Assembly (NCBI RefSeq): GCF_000003815.2
Contig: NC_049989.1
Location: forward strand, 14,152,555 to 14,216,554
Direction: 5' to 3'
Length of the DNA stretch: 64,000 nt
Source: Branchiostoma floridae
Lineage: Eukaryota > Chordata > Leptocardii > Amphioxiformes > Branchiostomatidae
Shown here: positions 621 through 54,130 of the stretch, in pieces
How positions within the stretch are numbered: position 1 is the stretch's first letter
Layout: each line of letters opens with the position of its first letter
The notes under the pieces: generated by a model
What the model was told of the DNA's origin: nothing
Databases searched by the model: none
What the model saw: the letters and a program-made list of their open reading frames with translations, nothing else
Position numbers and translations under genes: made by a program

Positions 621-31584
<30,964 letters not shown>

Positions 31585-32035: not shown

Positions 32036-35000
32036 ATGCCTCCCTCGACGTACGGCAGGGCTGCTAGGGTAGTGTGCGGTGTCGGCGCGGTGGCGTTCGG
32101 AATTTATCTGGGTTATGAGAACCGGCACAGAACGACGCTCCGTGCATCGTGGACCACCAACTTCAAACCTAGTGTAGAATGGGACTGGAACTGGGACAGG
32201 TAGGGTATATTTGTGGAATTAGAATATATAGAGCGTCCTTTAATGTTTTTGGAGCTTCTAGAGTATGAGTGAGTGGTTCAAACTGGAGCAAGAAGCTCCT
32301 ACCTGCCCTTGCACCGAATCTCCTCTATGAAAAAAATAATTTTTTTGTGGACTGTTCCAAAAAATTATTAAGGGTGGAGAAGAGATCTCAATCCAGCTTC
32401 TGTCCCTGTACCCAACCCCTCCGTCCCCAGTCCTATTTCATTATTTTTACCCACCCCGGGGACCCAACCCCCCTGTCCAATCCAGATATTCCTGACCCAA
32501 CCCCCCTGTCCAATCCAGATTTTCCTGACCCAACCCCCCTATCCAATCCAGATTTTCCTGACCCAACCCCCCTGTCCAATCCAGATATTCCTGACCCAAC
32601 CCCCCTATCCAATCCAGATTTTCCTGACCCAACCCCCCTGTCCAATCCAGATTTCCCAGACCCGACCCCCCTGTCCAATCCGGATTTTCCTGACCCTATC
32701 CCCCTGTCCAATCTGGATTTTCCTGACCCAACCTCCCTATCCAATCCAGATTTTCCTGACCCAACCCCCCTGTCCAATCCAGATATTCCTGACCCAACCC
32801 CCCTGTCCAATCCAGATTTTCCTGACCCTATCCCCCTGTCCAATCCAGATTTTCCTGACCCAACCCCCCTGTCCAATCCAGATTTTCCTGACCCAACCCC
32901 CCTGTCCAATCCAGATTTCCCAGACCCGACCCCCCTGTCCAATCTGGATTTTCCTGACCCTATCCCCCTGTCCACAATCCAGATATTCCTGACCCAACCC
33001 CCTATCCAATCCGAATTTTTTTATATAAATAAAGTGAATTTCTAATCATTGCAAAAGTCCAGAATCTGTTATTGTAATCACCAAGGCATTATATTTCATG
33101 TATGACATGATACTATGGCAGCTAGCCAGTGGTTACCCTAGTAATAGGCTTACCTTGACATGCCTTAGTCTAGACATTTAGCATAGCTAGATCTCAACCT
33201 GACAAACCAGTTTTCAGTGTGCACAAATTTGGTAATTGCTGCAATTACACATTGCGTTTGGGCGCTGTATAGCTCATACTTGTAGAGGGCAAACCTGAAT
33301 TAAATTAAAAGAACTTGAATAAAATGCTTTGTCTGGATGAATTGAATCTTGAACAATCTTCTATAATAGTATCAAAGTTTATCTGTCTGCATTTGTAGAA
33401 GTCATTTTGAACTTATAGATTGAAGTGTTATTTCCAATCCAACTGCCCAAAATTCAGATAATATGTAGCACCATATTTATCCAATAACACACAAATAGAT
33501 AAAGAATTATCTTTTCATTCGTTCGTTCATTCATTCATTCACTCATTCACTCACTCTCAGACGTGAGCCCAGTAGCCTGGTGAAACCCCCTAAGACAGAA
33601 GATGAGAAGGACTCCAACGAGTACAACGTGAAGGTTGAGGCAGTCAAGTCCAAGGCCAACAGACACCTCATCTTCATCAGACATGGGCAGTATGACATGA
33701 GTCCCAAGAACGATGAGGGCAGGATACTAACAGGGCTAGGTTGTATTTGTTGTTTTGTTATATTTCTCTTCACAGATGGGAAACATATTGTTTTTGCTCC
33801 ATTTCTTCTTCCTCCACTTCTTCTCCATACAAATAAGGTCAATGACCTGGACAGACGACTGTTAGTCTGTTACCATGGTTAGTAATGAAAAAGAATTGGA
33901 GCAAAAAGAATATGTTTCCCATTGGTGAAGGTAAACATATTGTTTTTGCTCTGTTTCTTCTTCCTCTTCTTCTTTAAACAATTAAGGTCAATGACCTGGA
34001 CCATGCCACTGTCACCACTGTTACTGGTTTAAGTGGTTAAGTGGCAGACACCCTATGGCATTTGATTATGTAATATATATATAGCATTGCTACATTACTG
34101 ATAGGGCAGGGCTTAGGGGACTGGTCACCATATATATATGATTATGAATGTGTTTGAGTAAAAAAAAAAGAGAGCAATAGTTCATTAGACTAGACCATGT
34201 AAAGCTAAAACATGTGTATTGATTGGCAACAAACAATATGTATATTCATGGCAAATGTTACATTTCTAGTTGATTTGATCAGTTTGATTCTGTTACATAG
34301 ACCCACATTGTAAAGACAATGTAGATGATGTATTTACATGTATGTACTTATTTATATTACTAGCCTCACAGGATTCTAGCCAGAAAAAATCATCCCTTTG
34401 CTGATTAAAAGATAGTGTAAGGCCCTACATATAAATCACAGCATAGGGGTTCAAATCACAGCGTAGGAATACCTCACTACCACAATCCTTTGCTACCTAG
34501 AACACTGCATAGCATTTTAAGGAATAGTAATTGTTGACACTGATTGAATGATAAATAGCATTTCAATGAGTATCATTTCCTTAACAAGCACCACCATATA
34601 CAGTACTAGTACCTTTTTGTTTTCCATGATATAGGTAAAGAACAAGCAACTTTCACTGGAAAAAGGCTACAGGAGCTGAGTAAGGAGCTGGGTGACTTTG
34701 ACCTCATCATGCAGTCCACAATGACACGTGCGATGGAGACAGCGCAGATCATCTCAGGTTTTCTTCCCAAGGTGCCTTTGAAGAGTTGCGGGTTACTGCG
34801 GGAGGGCGCACCCATCCCCCCTGAACCACCCATCGGCCACTGGAGGCCTGAACCTTCTGTAAGTGAAGAGGACACGTTTTGCTTTTTTGTTTGTTTTTTG
34901 TTTGTTTTGTATTGCATAAGCAGTAAACTCCCTCATGGTGTAACATACCTGGTTTGTATTGAAGAGTACAGGCTGCATATGTACATTGTAGGATGTATCC

Positions 35001-41700: not shown

Positions 41701-44700
41701 NNNNNNNNNNNNNNNNNNNNNNNNNNNNNNNNNNNNNNNNNNNNNNNNNNNNNNNNNNNNNNNNNNNNNNNNNNNNNNNNNNNNNNNNNNNNNNNNNNNN
41801 NNNNNNNNNNNNNNNNNNNNNNNNNNNNNNNNNNNNNNNNNNNNNNNNNNNNNNNNNNNNNNNNNNNNNNNNNNNNNNNNNNNNNNNNNNNNNNNNNNNN
41901 NNNNNNNNNNNNNNNNNNNNNNNNNNNNNNNNNNNNNNNNNNNNNNNNNNNNNNNNNNNNNNNNNNNNNNNNNNNNNNNNNNNNNNNNNNNNNNNNNNNN
42001 NNNNNNNNNNNNNNNNNNNNNNNNNNNNNNNNNNNNNNNNNNNNNNNNNNNNNNNNNNNNNNNNNNNNNNNNNNNNNNNNNNNNNNNNNNNNNNNNNAAC
42101 TGTTTCGAGCGGGACTAGTGCGGCACCATCGAAAGTTCGAATACCTGATTCAGACATTGGAACATTACTGTTGCAACACTTTTTGTTCGAGGGCACCAAA
42201 TTTGTTCAACTTCTGGCGCATTTCGCATCAAAACGGGTTTTCTCAGGTGGGTATGGCATAAATAAAATACGATACGGTCTCCCAGCCCTCCCGCGGGTGA
42301 TACAGAATACACCGTGTTGTATTCTATATTTATCACACGATCCGGAACACCTGTATTGAACGTTATCACGGCCCAGGCATGACATAAAATAAGCTTTCGA
42401 TTATCTTCTACAGACCCATCCATCCGTGCGACTCAAGGGCACAGAGTTAAACTACACTCCGCAGTCATGTATCGATCAGACCTGCGCTAACAGAAACAGC
42501 GTACATTACCACTGTCCGCTGTGCACGAAGGCAGACTCGTACGGAGACCCCGTCATCCTCAAGGCACACTTCAGAGTGAAGCACGTGGACAAGAGCATCG
42601 AATTTGCTGGTAAAAAATCTACAACATATTTTTAGCAGTAAAACTGTCCAATATATACCAGGGTCTAGGTATACAATGTACATATACATTCAAACATTAA
42701 TCCCTTGACTCTTGAGAAAAAAGTTCTCAAATTCCAAAATTTTGATCAAATTCCAAAAGGTTTGAAAAAGAAAAAAGTTATGGAAGAAATTCAACAGAAA
42801 AAGTGCAGTCCTGGAATACCAAAAATATGAGTAGACTATTGGCACTGATGGAAAATTTTCCCTCATCTGTGATATACATTTTGGAAATATATCCATTGAG
42901 TGTATGATTATTGATATTATAGTTTTACTATATTATAGAGTCCATTTCAACTGAATTTGATGTTTATGATGTCTTGACATAAAAACACTTGTAAACACGT
43001 TAACCCATTGACAACTACATACCTTATTACAACTATTCCCATTGCCTTGACATTTCTAGGGCTGAAGGTCCTGCGATGCTGTAAGTCCTGTGAGATCGTG
43101 GGAGTGATTAAGGGTGAGAAGCGATTTAAGGGTGCCCACTGGCACTGCTACAGGTGCAGGAATGGCTTCAACAGGAGAGACGAGGCCGTCAAACACTACA
43201 AGACACACTTCCGCCACCCACAGACTACCTTCCAGATACAGATCCCAAACGTACGTTCTGATTGTGCTTGAGACTTCATTCTTTCCCTCTAATTGCTAAC
43301 TACATGTATACTGTGATACAAATGCAACCCAACAATCCGAAAATAATTTCATCAGTTTGGTAGAAGTTACTAGAACATAAGACAAAAGAGTTTTCTTTTA
43401 CACAGCCAGTTTCTCTCACCTGCTGACATTTCGATGTCTGTAAGACTTCTTCCCCAGAGCTTCTAACTGGAGTTCTACTTCTTGCCGCTATATGTAGCCG
43501 ATGTAGGTGGTGCTTTTGCAGTATGGATAAGAAAGTCCACCCCATTGATGAACCGGGACGAGGGGGGGTACAAGCTGAGCCACGTTTGGGATAGTGTTCT
43601 TTCCGCAAAAGCGTCACCTACATCGGCTACATTATAGTACATACAGCGGCAAGAAGCAGAACTTCAGTTAGAAGCTCTGAGGAAGATGTCTGACAGACAT
43701 TGAAACGTCAGCAGGTGAGGTAAACTGGTTGTGTATAAGTTATGTCTTACAACCCAACAATGAATTGAACTTATGGTGTACTACAGAAATAGCTCAACGA
43801 TACTGAACATTGCATTCATACATGTAGAAGTGTAAGAACTTGCAGCCTGTTGGAATTTGGATTGAAGATATTCATTGATACTCACAACTTGCAAATGGGC
43901 AACTCATAACTTGTTTTTACAGAAAATGATGTATTTGTCAGTCAATTCATTGCAATAGCCTCCTTTAAATGGAACTAAGGAAGTTGGAAAAATGTTACAC
44001 TTCCTTTTTCGATTACAGGAACTGATAAACACTGAGCCAGGCAAAGTTATTGAGAGTTTACATGGCAAAAACCTTGCTTTCTCCTAATGAAATTGTGGTT
44101 GACTTTGCCTTACCTTTGTTTGCTATTGGAATCTAAATTGTCTTTAGCTTGACTTTGTCTAACAAGGTCTCCTGTTGGACATCTAAAATTGTCTTCATAC
44201 ATAGTTAGGGTATAAAAGATCAGTTTCTTCCAGATCACTTCAGTGTCACTGACGAAGGATAGTGGATACTATCTGAAACGTCTGACTGTTTCCAAAACCA
44301 TATCCAGTTGCTTAAGTAACTACTTTTTTGAGTAATTTTTTATCTTTTGTGTACAGGAGCTGATGGACCCTGAGCCTGGTGACAGTTTACTAGAAGCCAG
44401 CAGTGCCTCCCACACCCTCACCACCACCACCTCCCAGTTCTCCAGTATCCACCCTGTCCTCACCGAGGCCGTCATGACAACCGCTCAGCTCACCAATGAC
44501 GGCAAGGGAGAGACCGCCGTGCCCAACGGTGTCGCAGCCAATGAGATCGTGGCTACTACGGATGGTCAGACGTATGTCATCATTCCAGAAAATGCTCAGG
44601 TATGTGAGGGGTCATATCATATTGATTTCATAAGCAGAAAAATGGTGAATGTTACACCCTTACTTTCATAACTGACATATCGTGCAAAATTGAAGTACTA

Positions 44701-47700: not shown

Positions 47701-49738
47701 TGGAATGTACAACAGGCATATGGCCTGCTCCGTCCGCATATATACATAAGAACGATATAAAAGTACGCAAAAAAGTATACAACTCTAACAATTGAGTACC
47801 ATCATTACCACCATCATTACAAGCTAAGTGTCTATAGTCTTATTGTACAACTTGATGGCTTTGTGCAGGAAGGAGTTCTGGAGTCTTTTGGTTCTAGCTG
47901 GGGGGATGGAGATAGTGTTTTTGTTTCTTAGTGATCGTCCCGTAGCAGTTGATCTGTAAGCTGGGACCAGGTCATGTAGGGGATGCTCAGCATCCAACAT
48001 TTGTCTGAATAGTTTGACAGCTGCATCCTCGCGTCGCGACTGGAGGGTGGGCAGGTCGGGTACATCGCGCCTGCCCGCTCGGCTGATAATCCGTAGAGCT
48101 CGCTGTTGAACTCTCTGCATTGCACGTTCCTGTTCCTTGCTACAGCCTACAAGGAGGACGTGACCATATTCAAGGACTGGGCGCACGAGGGACACGTAGA
48201 TAGTCACTAGGTCGGCGACACTGGTCCCTTGCTTTGCAAGTAGTCTCAAGAAGTGCAGTCTACGAGAGGCTTTAGTAACCATTGAGGTTACTTGCTCTTG
48301 CAGGGTGAGGTTTTTGTCCAAGATGAAGCCCAGACCTTTTGCGGACCCGACCCACGGAACGCACACACCCCCAAGGGTTAACCTTGGCGGGCTGGGAACA
48401 GATCTGCAGACACAGATTTGTAGCAGTTGGCTTTTCTTCCCGTTTAGCAACATGTTGTTGGTGTCAGCCCACGAGTCGAGATGAGATGTTTCTTCCTCAA
48501 GCGTTTTATCCTCGATGGCTTGGGGTAGTGAAAGAGTTCTGGACATTCCGACATCGTCCGCGTAGCCCACGTTCATAGTGTCAGGATGTACTGTTGTCCT
48601 TGAGCTCATAAAGAGCAGGAAAAGGTACGGGGACAGCACACCACCTTGTGGGACACCAGATGTCGGCTCCTTCCAGGTACTGGCCACGCCATTGACTACT
48701 ACCCTCTGACGCCGACCGCTGAGGTAGCTGTGGATCCAAGACACCATGCGTGGACTGGCCTGGATGTCGATCACACGCTGTAGCAGTATGGCATGATCGA
48801 CTCGATCGAAGGCTTTAGACATGTCAGCAAATAAAGCTCTGACCAGAGTTGGCTTCTTAGAATCCAGCGCAGTTAGCCAAGTTTGTACCATACGCACAAG
48901 AGCGATCGTAGTTGAAGAGCCCCTCATGTACGCGTACTGATCTTTAATGACGGCGCGTAAGGAAGGAAGAAGTCTCTTCAGGATGCATCGCTCCATCAAC
49001 TTAGCCAGCACAGACAGTAGAGAGATGGGTCGCATGTCGCAAACATCAGTTGCTCCCGCGGACTTCGGGACAGGTGCAATGTTGGCTGATTTCCATATGA
49101 GGGGCACTATACCGTCTTCGTACGAGGCATTGAAGAGGTGAGTTATGATGGGTGCAAGATCTTCGGCGTGTTCTTTAAGGATCCAGCTGGGGAGATCGTC
49201 CGGACCACTTGCCTTTCTGGGGTTTATGGACTTCAGCAAGGCTTTTACTTCTCCAATCGAGCAGAGATGTCTATTGTAAACACCTTTCTGTATTGACCAC
49301 ATTTTCTTGGTCCCAAGTAGTCTTTTAAAGGCAGTTATGGCTGCTGTACTGTATTCATAAAATATTGTCTTTTTCTCTATGTGCCAGGCATCTCACCCCA
49401 TCCTAGTCACCATGTTGTCCCCATCCGAGTCTGGGACTACCACATCACAGGAGAACGACCAGTCCGTCTCAACCAGCTCACAGCTGTCACAACAACAGGT
49501 CCAGTTTCAGACACTGTACGTCACACACAACATGCACGGCGACTCAAACGGTCCCGAGAACGACAGCAGAGATTTGATGGCGTCCGACGGGGTCTCGGAG
49601 AGTTCCAACGTCATCATGGATGTAGGGGAAGATTCGCATCAACTTCTCGTGGACAGTATCGATGTTAGAATAGACAAGAGGAAATCAGAGGATGCTCTGT
49701 TGGAAGAACCCAACAAAAGAAGAAAAGACAGTCCATAG
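38741..49738 (+). CDS. Unrecognised nuclear-type protein: two C2H2-like fingers plus coiled coils, 482 residues, eight exons
   Basis: Exons 38741-38782, 42414-42609, 43060-43250, 44357-44599, 45494-45745, 46200-46269, 47051-47154, 49388-49738; every junction keeps phase. The start ATG has an in-frame TAG just upstream. Residues about 35-70 hold a finger (YHCPLC..HFRVKH). Residues about 83-140 hold a Cys-rich stretch (LRCCKSCEIVGVIKG) and a second finger (HWHCYRCRNGFNRRDEAVKH then KTH). A Ser/Thr-rich region follows, then a Gln/Leu/Glu coiled coil (DNIIRLLEQRRQLQTEVEQL) continued in exon 7 (LIEKLNREHRQLLEQQ). The C-terminus is acidic with a basic end (EEPNKRRKDSP), a possible nuclear signal. 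A DNA- or chromatin-linked role is inferred only from the fingers. I could not name a vertebrate orthologue. Confidence 0.85.
39484..41054 (+). mobile_element. LTR retrotransposon with two 336-bp LTRs; interior mostly in an N gap
   Basis: The LTRs at 39484-39819 and 40719-41054 start TGTAGGA and end CTTACA and differ at only about four sites. AATAAA occurs inside each LTR (39675-39680 in the left). A candidate tRNA primer site, TGGCGTTGTCGGCAGG, starts one or two bases after the left LTR, and a G-rich tract (AAACTGGGGGTGAG) precedes the right LTR. The flanking word TGAT appears on both sides and would be a 4-bp target duplication. The visible interior is about 400 bp plus 496 N, so gag/pol cannot be judged. 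It may be a short non-autonomous element, or the gap may be undersized. Confidence 0.85.
39957..40452. other. Assembly gap (496 N) inside the LTR element
   Basis: A run of N. Any reading frame crossing it is an artefact. Its true length is unknown. Confidence 0.99.
41200..42400. repeat. Large inverted repeat flanking an assembly gap
   Basis: Left arm about 41225-41560 and right arm about 42100-42390 are inverted relatives. Shared words in opposite orientation include TTTGGTGCCC / GGGCACCAAA, GATGCGAAATGCGCCAGAAG / its complement, and the ends near TGTCATACCTGTGACG / CAGGCATGACATAAA. The centre is the 533-base N gap (41565-42097), so a palindrome probably caused the assembly break. It lies in intron 1 of the zinc-finger gene. 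Confidence 0.7.
41565..42097. other. Assembly gap (533 N)
   Basis: A run of N between two inverted arms. It lies between exons 1 and 2 of the zinc-finger gene, whose phases already agree, so no missing exon is required. Confidence 0.99.
43418..43727 (+). repeat. Foldback element carrying a hammerhead-like motif at its right end
   Basis: The left end (CACCTGCTGACATTTCGATG) is the inverse of the right end (CATTGAAACGTCAGCAGGTG). The inner arms repeat CCGATGTAGGTG / CACCTACATCGG. It lies in the intron after exon 3 of the zinc-finger gene. The right end fits a hammerhead ribozyme core (separate entry); the left end is a decayed inverse copy. Confidence 0.7.
43674..43712 (+). ncRNA. Putative hammerhead ribozyme (dimer-type) in a dispersed repeat
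   Basis: Core CTGAGGA at 43677-43683. Stem II ATGTCT/AGACAT (43686-43691 with 43695-43700) has a 3-base loop, plus an outer A-T pair and one bulged G. GAAA is at 43702-43705, then C and GTC (cleavage after 43709). Helix III would be the palindrome ACGT, which can only pair between two copies. Helix I pairs GCT (43674-43676) with AGC (43710-43712). Such minimal hammerheads are known from Penelope-like retroelements. Activity is unproven. Confidence 0.5.
44014..44060 (+). pseudogene. Decayed duplicate of the start of zinc-finger gene exon 4
   Basis: After a pyrimidine-rich GATTACAG, the sequence reads GAACTGATAAACACTGAGCC and encodes ELINTEPG, close to ELMDPEPG at the start of the real exon (44357). 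Similarity fades after about 25 bases and a stop follows at about 22 codons, so it is probably a non-functional duplicate acceptor/exon edge. Confidence 0.45.
44245..44286 (+). ncRNA. Putative hammerhead ribozyme (dimer-type), best copy
   Basis: Helix I GTCA (44245-44248) pairs with TGAC (44283-44286). The core CTGACGA is at 44249-44255. Stem II A-T, G-C, one bulged G, then ATAG/CTAT (44259-44262 with 44269-44272) closes a six-base loop. GAAA is at 44275-44278, followed by C and GTC with cleavage expected after 44282. Helix III is the self-complementary ACGT. The stem II bulge sits where the neighbouring copy (43674-43712) has one. It belongs to a dispersed repeat also seen at 53.9 and 54.05 kb in decayed form. 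Confidence 0.55.
45221..45420. repeat. Foldback element, family B (TACTGTAAATGCA ends), copy 5
   Basis: About 200 bp with inverted ends TACTGTAAATGCA / TGCATTTACAGTA and internal CGCGGTGG / CCACCGCG-type words. The TA at both ends suggests a TA target site. It lies in the zinc-finger gene intron just upstream of the coiled-coil exon. Confidence 0.85.
45936..46022 (+). repeat. Tandem copy of the exon 5 3' edge and donor in the zinc-finger gene
   Basis: About 85 bases (GGAGGAGATAGCACAGCTG onward) repeat the end of the real exon at 45718-45745 together with its donor GTGAAAGG and the following intron to about 45805, with few changes. No acceptor was recognised directly upstream, so it is likely a silent duplicated donor. 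Confidence 0.75.
46336..46676 (+). repeat. Dispersed foldback-type element, family C (GTGCAGGT-rich), copy 2
   Basis: Starts CAGGGCTCGAAATAC and ends GTATTTCAAGCCCTG, an inverted end pair. The interior is full of GTGCAGGT / ACCTGCAC words. It is nearly identical in order to the copy at 10077-10416. Confidence 0.8.
47643..49320 (-). mobile_element. 5'-truncated non-LTR retrotransposon (LINE) with open reverse transcriptase frame
   Basis: A 492-codon open frame (49302-47824) encodes a non-LTR reverse transcriptase. Words in order: GPDDLPSWILKEH, SANIAPVPKSAG, MRPISLLSVLAKLMERCI, ALFADMSKAFDRVDHAI, SGVPQGGVLSPYLFLLF, and the catalytic GYADDV. C-terminal thumb-like sequence follows. The endonuclease and any ORF1 are absent, as expected for a 5'-truncated insertion. 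It resembles the CR1/L2/jockey side of the LINE tree; the exact clade is not claimed. It lies antisense in the last intron of the zinc-finger gene, and its 3' end is at about 47643. Confidence 0.88.
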
Positions 49739-53839: not shown

Positions 53840-54130
53840 ACTCACAAGCAACTGAACATGATTTTGGAAATGGTCAGACGTCTCTGGTAGCATTCACCAC
53901 CTTTCGTCAGTGACACTGGGCAAGTAGATCTGTCTCATTGGTTGGCAGGTTTAAACCCTAACTATAACGGTTTAAAACCTGTTGTGTTGTATAAAACCAT
54001 AATTCATGTTTAGAATTTAAAACACATTCTTCAACAGATCTTGCTCATTGTCACTGAAAGGTAGTGGATGCTACCTGAAATGTCTGACTGTTTCCAAAAT
54101 CATATCTAGTCGCTTGAGTAACTGCTATTT
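53840..54130. repeat. Two decayed copies, in opposite orientation, of the hammerhead-bearing repeat
   Basis: The minus-strand copy (about 53915-53872) keeps CTGACGA and helix I GTCA/TGAC but has GAGA instead of GAAA. The plus-strand copy (54050-54090) has GTCA, CTGA with two core bases lost, stem AGGTAG/CTACCT and GAAATGTC. Both continue into the shared CTGTTTCCAAAATCAT-like flank. Neither should cleave. Confidence 0.6.

Follow-up and report, generated by a model that had tools for sequence, protein, structure and literature searches.

A 5′-truncated insertion in a predicted intron of the amphioxus Branchiostoma floridae carries a short motif that is very probably the minimal type I hammerhead of a Penelope-like retroelement. 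The motif lies at 44245-44286 of the window, by which we mean the whole 64,000-nt stretch of DNA that was analysed. Its parts, together with other related features of the window, are listed in Table 1. The evidence comes from the layout of the motif, from compensating changes in its stems among dispersed copies, and from the protein-coding frames that lie upstream of the same motif elsewhere in the genome.

Architecture of the motif

Read directly from the sequence, the motif runs GTCA CTGACGA A GGATAG TGGATA CTATCT GAAACGTC TGAC, and all parts of a minimal hammerhead follow one another in order, as the earlier note had claimed. With the core CUGANGA ... GAAA ... UH in this arrangement, the layout is that of a minimal type I hammerhead. 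The C at 44282 is taken by us to be the cleavage position, by analogy with hammerheads. The original description of stem II, as a paired stem with one bulge, was right about the stem but not about the bulge: what had been read as such is an extra nucleotide after CTGACGA plus a G.U pair. In the window copy stem II has 6 bp, of which the first, at the base, is G.U, because position 44274 is T, whereas C stands there in most of the 29 close copies. One canonical feature is absent, namely the direct joining of stem II to the CUGANGA box; one extra nucleotide is found there, and an offset of 1 gives the best pairing as compared with 0 or 2.

The ACGT palindrome leaves no loop, so that a single copy cannot close helix III, and pairing is possible between two copies. 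For the predicted cleavage, a lone copy should need a partner. The CG of helix III was found in 108 of 116 related motifs of the fetched loci, a set that was mostly recruited by ACGTC. The possible hairpin downstream of the motif (Table 1) sits near the short-class 3′ ends of element copies.

Table 1. Coordinates of the hammerhead motif at 44245-44286, the insertion that carries it and related motifs in the window.
Feature	Position	Strand	Basis
Stem I, 5′ strand, GTCA	44245..44248	+	sequence and pairing counts
Core CTGACGA, position 7 = C	44249..44255	+	sequence and pattern search
Extra unpaired A between core box and stem II	44256	+	A in 91/95 copies
Stem II, 5′ strand, GGATAG	44257..44262	+	pairing counts and RNAalifold
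Stem II, 3′ strand, CTATCT	44269..44274	+	comparison with close copies
GAAA box; helix III begins with its final A	44275..44278	+	sequence
Palindrome ACGT (helix III)	44278..44281	+	sequence; no loop left within one copy
Presumed cleavage nucleotide, C of the GTC triplet, predicted cut after C	44282	+	analogy with hammerheads
Stem I, 3′ strand, TGAC	44283..44286	+	sequence and pairing counts
Possible hairpin AGTTGC-TTAA-GTAACT, just 5′ of the insertion 3′ end	44306..44321	+	by eye
5′-truncated Penelope-like fragment, family F1, short 3′-end class	44099..~44334	+	similarity to 29 copies
Second hammerhead motif, family F2, same intron	43677..43709 (model match 43670-43715)	+	23.0 bits
F2 fragments, inverted head-to-head pair; decayed motif on left arm	43386..43748		inverted repeats I1 and I3; motif by eye
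F1 motif, changed core (GAGAC)	53871..53917	-	52.4 bits
F1 motif, 3-nt core deletion, head-to-head with the 53871..53917 motif	54047..54090	+	49.9 bits
Decayed F1 motif	13926..13972	-	20.3 bits, E 6e-4

Abundance and dispersal in the genome

Two matches of CTGANGA-N6-30-GAAACGT lie in the window (at 43677 and 44249), whereas 100 dinucleotide shuffles gave 0.03 on average. In a genome of 513.4 Mb in 431 contigs, the pattern CTGANGA-N6-30-GAAACGTC gave 1706 forward and 1582 reverse matches, 3,288 altogether, as compared with 52 + 55 = 107 for a control pattern read backwards. A chance match was rejected, as the counts for control patterns and dinucleotide shuffles lay far below those observed. 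That the motif belongs to a dispersed repeat, as had been proposed, was confirmed by a DNA search with positions 44180-44345 of the window, which returned 3,465 first-look candidates, of which 40 were scored.

An extra nucleotide other than A was found in 182 genome matches of a narrower pattern vs. 22 for the control. As a separate observation, a subfamily in which T replaces the extra A (CTGATGATGGTGTC...) occurs on contig C3 at C3:4323902-4324473 and C3:9436328-9438132, as two head-to-head pairs with members about 0.5 and 1.8 kb apart. At C5:27710097-28019991, nine 31-nt non-A pattern matches lie within 310 kb and perhaps represent one local expansion.

Pairing and covariation among copies

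Pairing was counted in 95 distinct copies (93 fetched plus the 2 of the window), each with the required 40 nt before and 60 nt after; the copies were drawn from the listed pattern matches, which cover only part of contig C1, with the last seven left out. With an offset of one nucleotide, the successive pairs of stem II form in 95, 95, 89, 89, 92, and 81% of these copies vs. 76, 74, 43, 52, 64, and 42% when the 3′ letters of the same copies are shuffled. Starting the stem immediately after the core box, or with an offset of two, gave no consistent excess over the shuffles. For stem I, the corresponding values are 91, 85, 67, and 66% vs. 58, 84, 51, and 48%; three of the four positions are above the shuffles, and the -2/+2 pair shows no excess. 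Position 7 of the core is C in 53 copies, A in 19, G in 15, and T in 8, and the spacer is 18, 19, or 20 nt long in 88 of the 95.

Two alignments were made. The first (A1) was made from 83 distinct copies whose spacers measure 18-20 nt, and its 18-nt class is out of register. The second (A2) holds 60 gap-free sequences, with the window excluded; left out of it are 15 copies of the 18-nt class, 7 of the 20-nt class, and copy L019. Since GAAACGTC and six letters of CTGANGA were fixed by the search pattern, their constancy in A1 and A2 is no evidence. In A2, 93.9% of the stem II cells and 78.3% of the stem I cells are paired, with changes on both sides in all six pairs of stem II and in three of four pairs of stem I. 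The covariation score of A2 is 0.581 vs. 0.258 when shuffled, a value that none of 500 shuffles reached, and versions with the stems slid along gave at most 0.184. Two of the five covariation measures were no better than the shuffles: pairs with double changes (9 vs. 7.7; reached by 116 of 500 shuffles) and the number of pair types (22 vs. 21.1; reached by 190 of 500). The outer two positions of stem I are unpaired in 17 and 20 of the 60 copies of A2, and RNAalifold, when unaided, recovered stem II and omitted stem I. Covariation in the two stems, for which the earlier note had suggested collecting genomic copies, is present: strong for stem II, weaker for stem I. That the sequence is conserved for coding and not for an RNA structure is unlikely, because the motif comes after the stop codon of the frame and spacer lengths differ by single nucleotides.

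The covariation of stem II is also compatible with inverted repeats in DNA, and the copies are often arranged head-to-head: of 20 loci found by protein search (described below), 13 have a motif in inverted orientation on the 5′ side, one of them weak. The motif might accordingly be read as a hammerhead-like inverted-repeat site in DNA and not as an RNA catalyst, for example as a binding site of the element's endonuclease. We consider this improbable, as families with differing stems have all the hammerhead core letters and the one free position, 7, takes all four letters, although this argument is limited by the fixing of the other letters in the search pattern and by the near-identity of 18 motifs found through the protein. 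Moreover, a relative of the element from Anolis is described as cutting RNA, and mutation of C3 or G8 abolishes the cutting (PMC11167929). An RNA hammerhead is the reading that we follow.

Covariance models

A covariance model built from A2, that is from 60 other copies, matched the window copy with 71.6 bits (E 5e-20). The Rfam hammerhead models gave no match in the window at gathering scores and none around the motif up to E 10. They also gave none in the 20 carrier loci, 19 of which hold intact motifs. The search with covariance models that had been proposed for the window was thus negative for Rfam and positive for the model made from the copies. Hammerhead motifs in the window and in the 20 carrier loci are missed by the Rfam models despite the presence of the pattern in thousands of genome copies. 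Non-hammerhead Rfam matches around the motif (JPX_2, FtrA, and others) were rejected as being far under gathering scores.

The matches of the A2 model in the window beyond the main copy, listed at E below 0.001, are included in Table 1. Elsewhere, in locus L143 (reverse-complement positions), two decayed F2 motifs lie head-to-head at 386 (-) and 457 (+), within 2 kb of an F1 fragment; F1 and F2 are also found together in the window intron.

The carrier element

Upstream of copy L009 we found a 172-aa frame with an endonuclease-like motif. Searching the genome with this protein, with 150 of 1,711 first-look candidates scored, returned 152 matches, of which the best 20 were fetched, including L123, the query's own locus. 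In 18 of the 19 other loci a hammerhead motif is present on the same strand, downstream of the frame; L142 is without the motif. The motif starts 187-247 nt past the frame end in 18 of 19 loci (L123 included), and in L136, the frame of which is cut short, this distance is 347 nt. All 18 protein-found motifs are intact and near-identical, 16 of them being the same, which suggests one young lineage.

The only Pfam match of the 658-aa frame of L137 at E 0.1 was RVT_1, with 33.0 bits (cut-off 29.6); for the reverse transcriptase there was also one weak match in the PDB, to an RNA-directed DNA polymerase (E 0.0077). The C-terminal parts of L125 and L128 matched GIY-YIG (PF01541) with 21.3 and 22.4 bits (E 3e-4 and 2e-4, respectively), which is just under the cut-off of 22.6. 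For the endonuclease frames of L009 and L020 Pfam reported no family, nor did it report GIY-YIG for the L137 frame, and the endonuclease part had no match among the solved structures of the PDB. In family F3 (L020), a related endonuclease, 44% identical to that of L125, lies upstream of the motif. Reverse transcriptase plus GIY-YIG in one frame is the arrangement given for canonical Penelope-like elements in PMC11167929. The RVT_1 match and the endonuclease frames upstream of the motif support the original guess of such an element, and, judged by these proteins, we take the carrier to be Penelope-like. This ties the motif to a protein-coding carrier.

Thousands of dispersed copies with a type I layout could likewise point to a non-LTR retrozyme, a small element with circular RNA whose type I hammerheads lie in short tandem repeats. 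Retrozymes are without a protein frame, whereas the longer copies here join a reverse transcriptase-endonuclease frame. Moreover, no tandem spacing of 150-450 bp was found in the fetched loci over 3 kb. In these loci there are four same-strand neighbour pairs, 572-1482 bp apart, vs. 16 on opposite strands (3 and 14 when overlapping loci are counted once). A retrozyme is therefore a very unlikely carrier, and we retain the Penelope-like element.

Two classes of 3′ ends

When 60 F1 copies recruited by the motif were aligned to one long copy (one of the 60 being this reference itself, and 15 of the 95 copies not being placed in any family), 31 ended at most 58 nt after the predicted cut and 28 ended at 61-105 nt. 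Among 19 protein-found copies, 15 stop after TTTTTGGCG (short class) and 4 carry about 35 nt more (long class). Depending on the class, the motif lies approximately 50 or 85 nt before the insertion end. For the Anolis element, reverse transcription is reported to start at two sites, both of which serve as insertion ends and enclose an optional tail of 30-40 bp (PMC11167929). The two amphioxus classes, some 35 nt apart, resemble this optional Penelope tail. As to the terminal repeats or tandem units of Penelope-like elements, the fetched loci, which reach about 1.5 kb each way, showed the inverted 5′ motif in 13 of 20 and no tandem unit.

The insertion and its predicted host intron

Similarity of the window copy to the 29 close copies begins at 44097-44100 in 12 of them and later in the rest, and it ends at 44326-44335 in 24, at 44345-44348 in four, and at 44322 in one. 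By this comparison the window copy is a short-end, 5′-truncated insertion of about 236 bp. The surrounding intron is inferred at 43251-44356 on the strand of the motif, with GT at 43251, AG at 44355-44356, and phase 0 on both sides. Of the earlier placement in an intron of a zinc-finger gene, the intron is upheld, as a prediction from splice signals and phase, and the zinc-finger assignment is not, no Pfam family being found up to E 5 for the two open stretches that precede the intron. Between the end of the insertion and the inferred 3′ splice site there are 22-28 nt, so that element sequence may include the branch-point region of the intron.

The closeness to the acceptor, the sense-strand orientation, and the second motif in the same orientation 572 nt upstream could be taken as signs of a ribozyme adopted by the host for regulating the splicing of the window gene. 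We regard such adoption as highly improbable. The window copy differs from the majority of its close copies at 5 of 149 positions, one of which is at the foot of stem II. Identity among the 29 close copies is 0.963 in the core vs. 0.967 in the flanks (0.976 vs. 0.968 without CpG). Nor can the two intron motifs share stem I, as GCT does not pair with TGAC; by inspection, a mixed dimer of the F1 and F2 motifs was rejected for this mismatch.

Selection on individual copies was not seen in the comparison of core and flanks. As the core is kept no better than the flanks, the decay of dispersed copies seems to be unconstrained, and the covariation would stem from constraint on the active source elements. 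A hammerhead left behind by a retroelement is how we read the intron motif; for the host intron it has little significance, the copy looking like an ordinary decaying insertion.

Proposed mechanism and folding

In longer copies the motif lies about 190-250 nt past the reverse transcriptase-endonuclease frame and near the insertion end, which, by analogy with Anolis, would be where reverse transcription starts. A double hammerhead would form when two adjacent units of the element pair through their ACGU segments, sharing helix III; by cutting after GUC it would trim multimeric transcripts to units. Sharing of helix III by two copies in one transcript is described for newt and viroid hammerheads (PMC6155905). 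The lone intron copy is most likely silent, because it has no tandem partner of its own family.

With ViennaRNA, 67 of 87 single copies preferred to fold into a hairpin in which CGUC pairs with the core GANG (the 87 being taken from the 95, and the hairpin being called at no fewer than 3 of 4 pairs). The preference varied with position 7: of the copies with C there, 51 of 52 gave the hairpin, as did all 6 with T and 10 of the 14 with G, but none of the 15 with A. For each of the six examples computed, the double hammerhead came out as less stable than two monomer hairpins. The folding result is only a hint, since a nearest-neighbour model takes no account of the tertiary core. We put forward tentatively, and with more doubt than confidence, that minimal hammerheads may be latched switches, in which the GANG-CGUC hairpin hides the core and the cut site and a partner RNA or the element's protein would open it.

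The predicted latch fold does agree with the behaviour of the Anolis ribozyme, which is reported to cut only with the element protein added, and the core mutants of which still insert; in that account insertion by the mutants is unchanged and no RNA reads end at the cut site (PMC11167929). If true, the latch would explain why this relative cuts only when its protein is supplied. The extra core nucleotide and the predicted latch offer cheap tests of a possible need of the Penelope hammerhead for a partner or a protein.

Relation to known hammerheads

This kind of motif is already known, and the parts that are possibly new may be limited to the extra nucleotide and the latch. De la Pena and Flores (2001) reportedly described a viroid hammerhead in which the CUGANGA box is followed by an extra A; that motif belongs to a viroid RNA, whereas the amphioxus motif belongs to a retroelement. 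Among the open papers listed for hammerheads or Penelope together with amphioxus or Branchiostoma, we recognised no report on amphioxus hammerheads.

Minimal type I hammerheads in Penelope-like elements, with thousands in animal genomes, are covered in published accounts (PMC7761336, PMC6155905, PMC7229834). Compared with these motifs, as presented in later papers, the amphioxus copies may be distinguished by their conserved extra nucleotide between CUGANGA and stem II. PAc, the Poseidon element of Anolis carolinensis, is described with a motif near the reverse-transcription start and with two insertion ends, like the amphioxus element; its frame starts at stem II and the cut falls 26 bp inside the frame (PMC11167929), whereas the amphioxus motif was seen past the frame end, in copies that are incomplete at the 5′ end. 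The protein alignment in the same paper includes a Branchiostoma floridae element from Repbase. Hammerheads of the axolotl and other amphibians likewise have a weak palindromic helix III and are reported to need a dimer for good cleavage, but they differ from those of amphioxus in forming tandem repeats, 330 and 350 bp long, and in having loop 1 in contact with loop 2 (PMC7229834).

Other features of the window

Three further features of the window were noticed. Two matches to the Rfam mir-2060 precursor lie on the minus strand at 27042-27127 and 27205-27289, with 64.5 and 61.1 bits, respectively. The stretch 32269-33045 is repetitive and open in several frames on both strands, with 12-residue units, and is perhaps a minisatellite. 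At 47824-49392 (-) there is an open reverse transcriptase frame of 522 aa (RVT_1, 86 bits), which was not linked to the Penelope element and perhaps belongs to a LINE.
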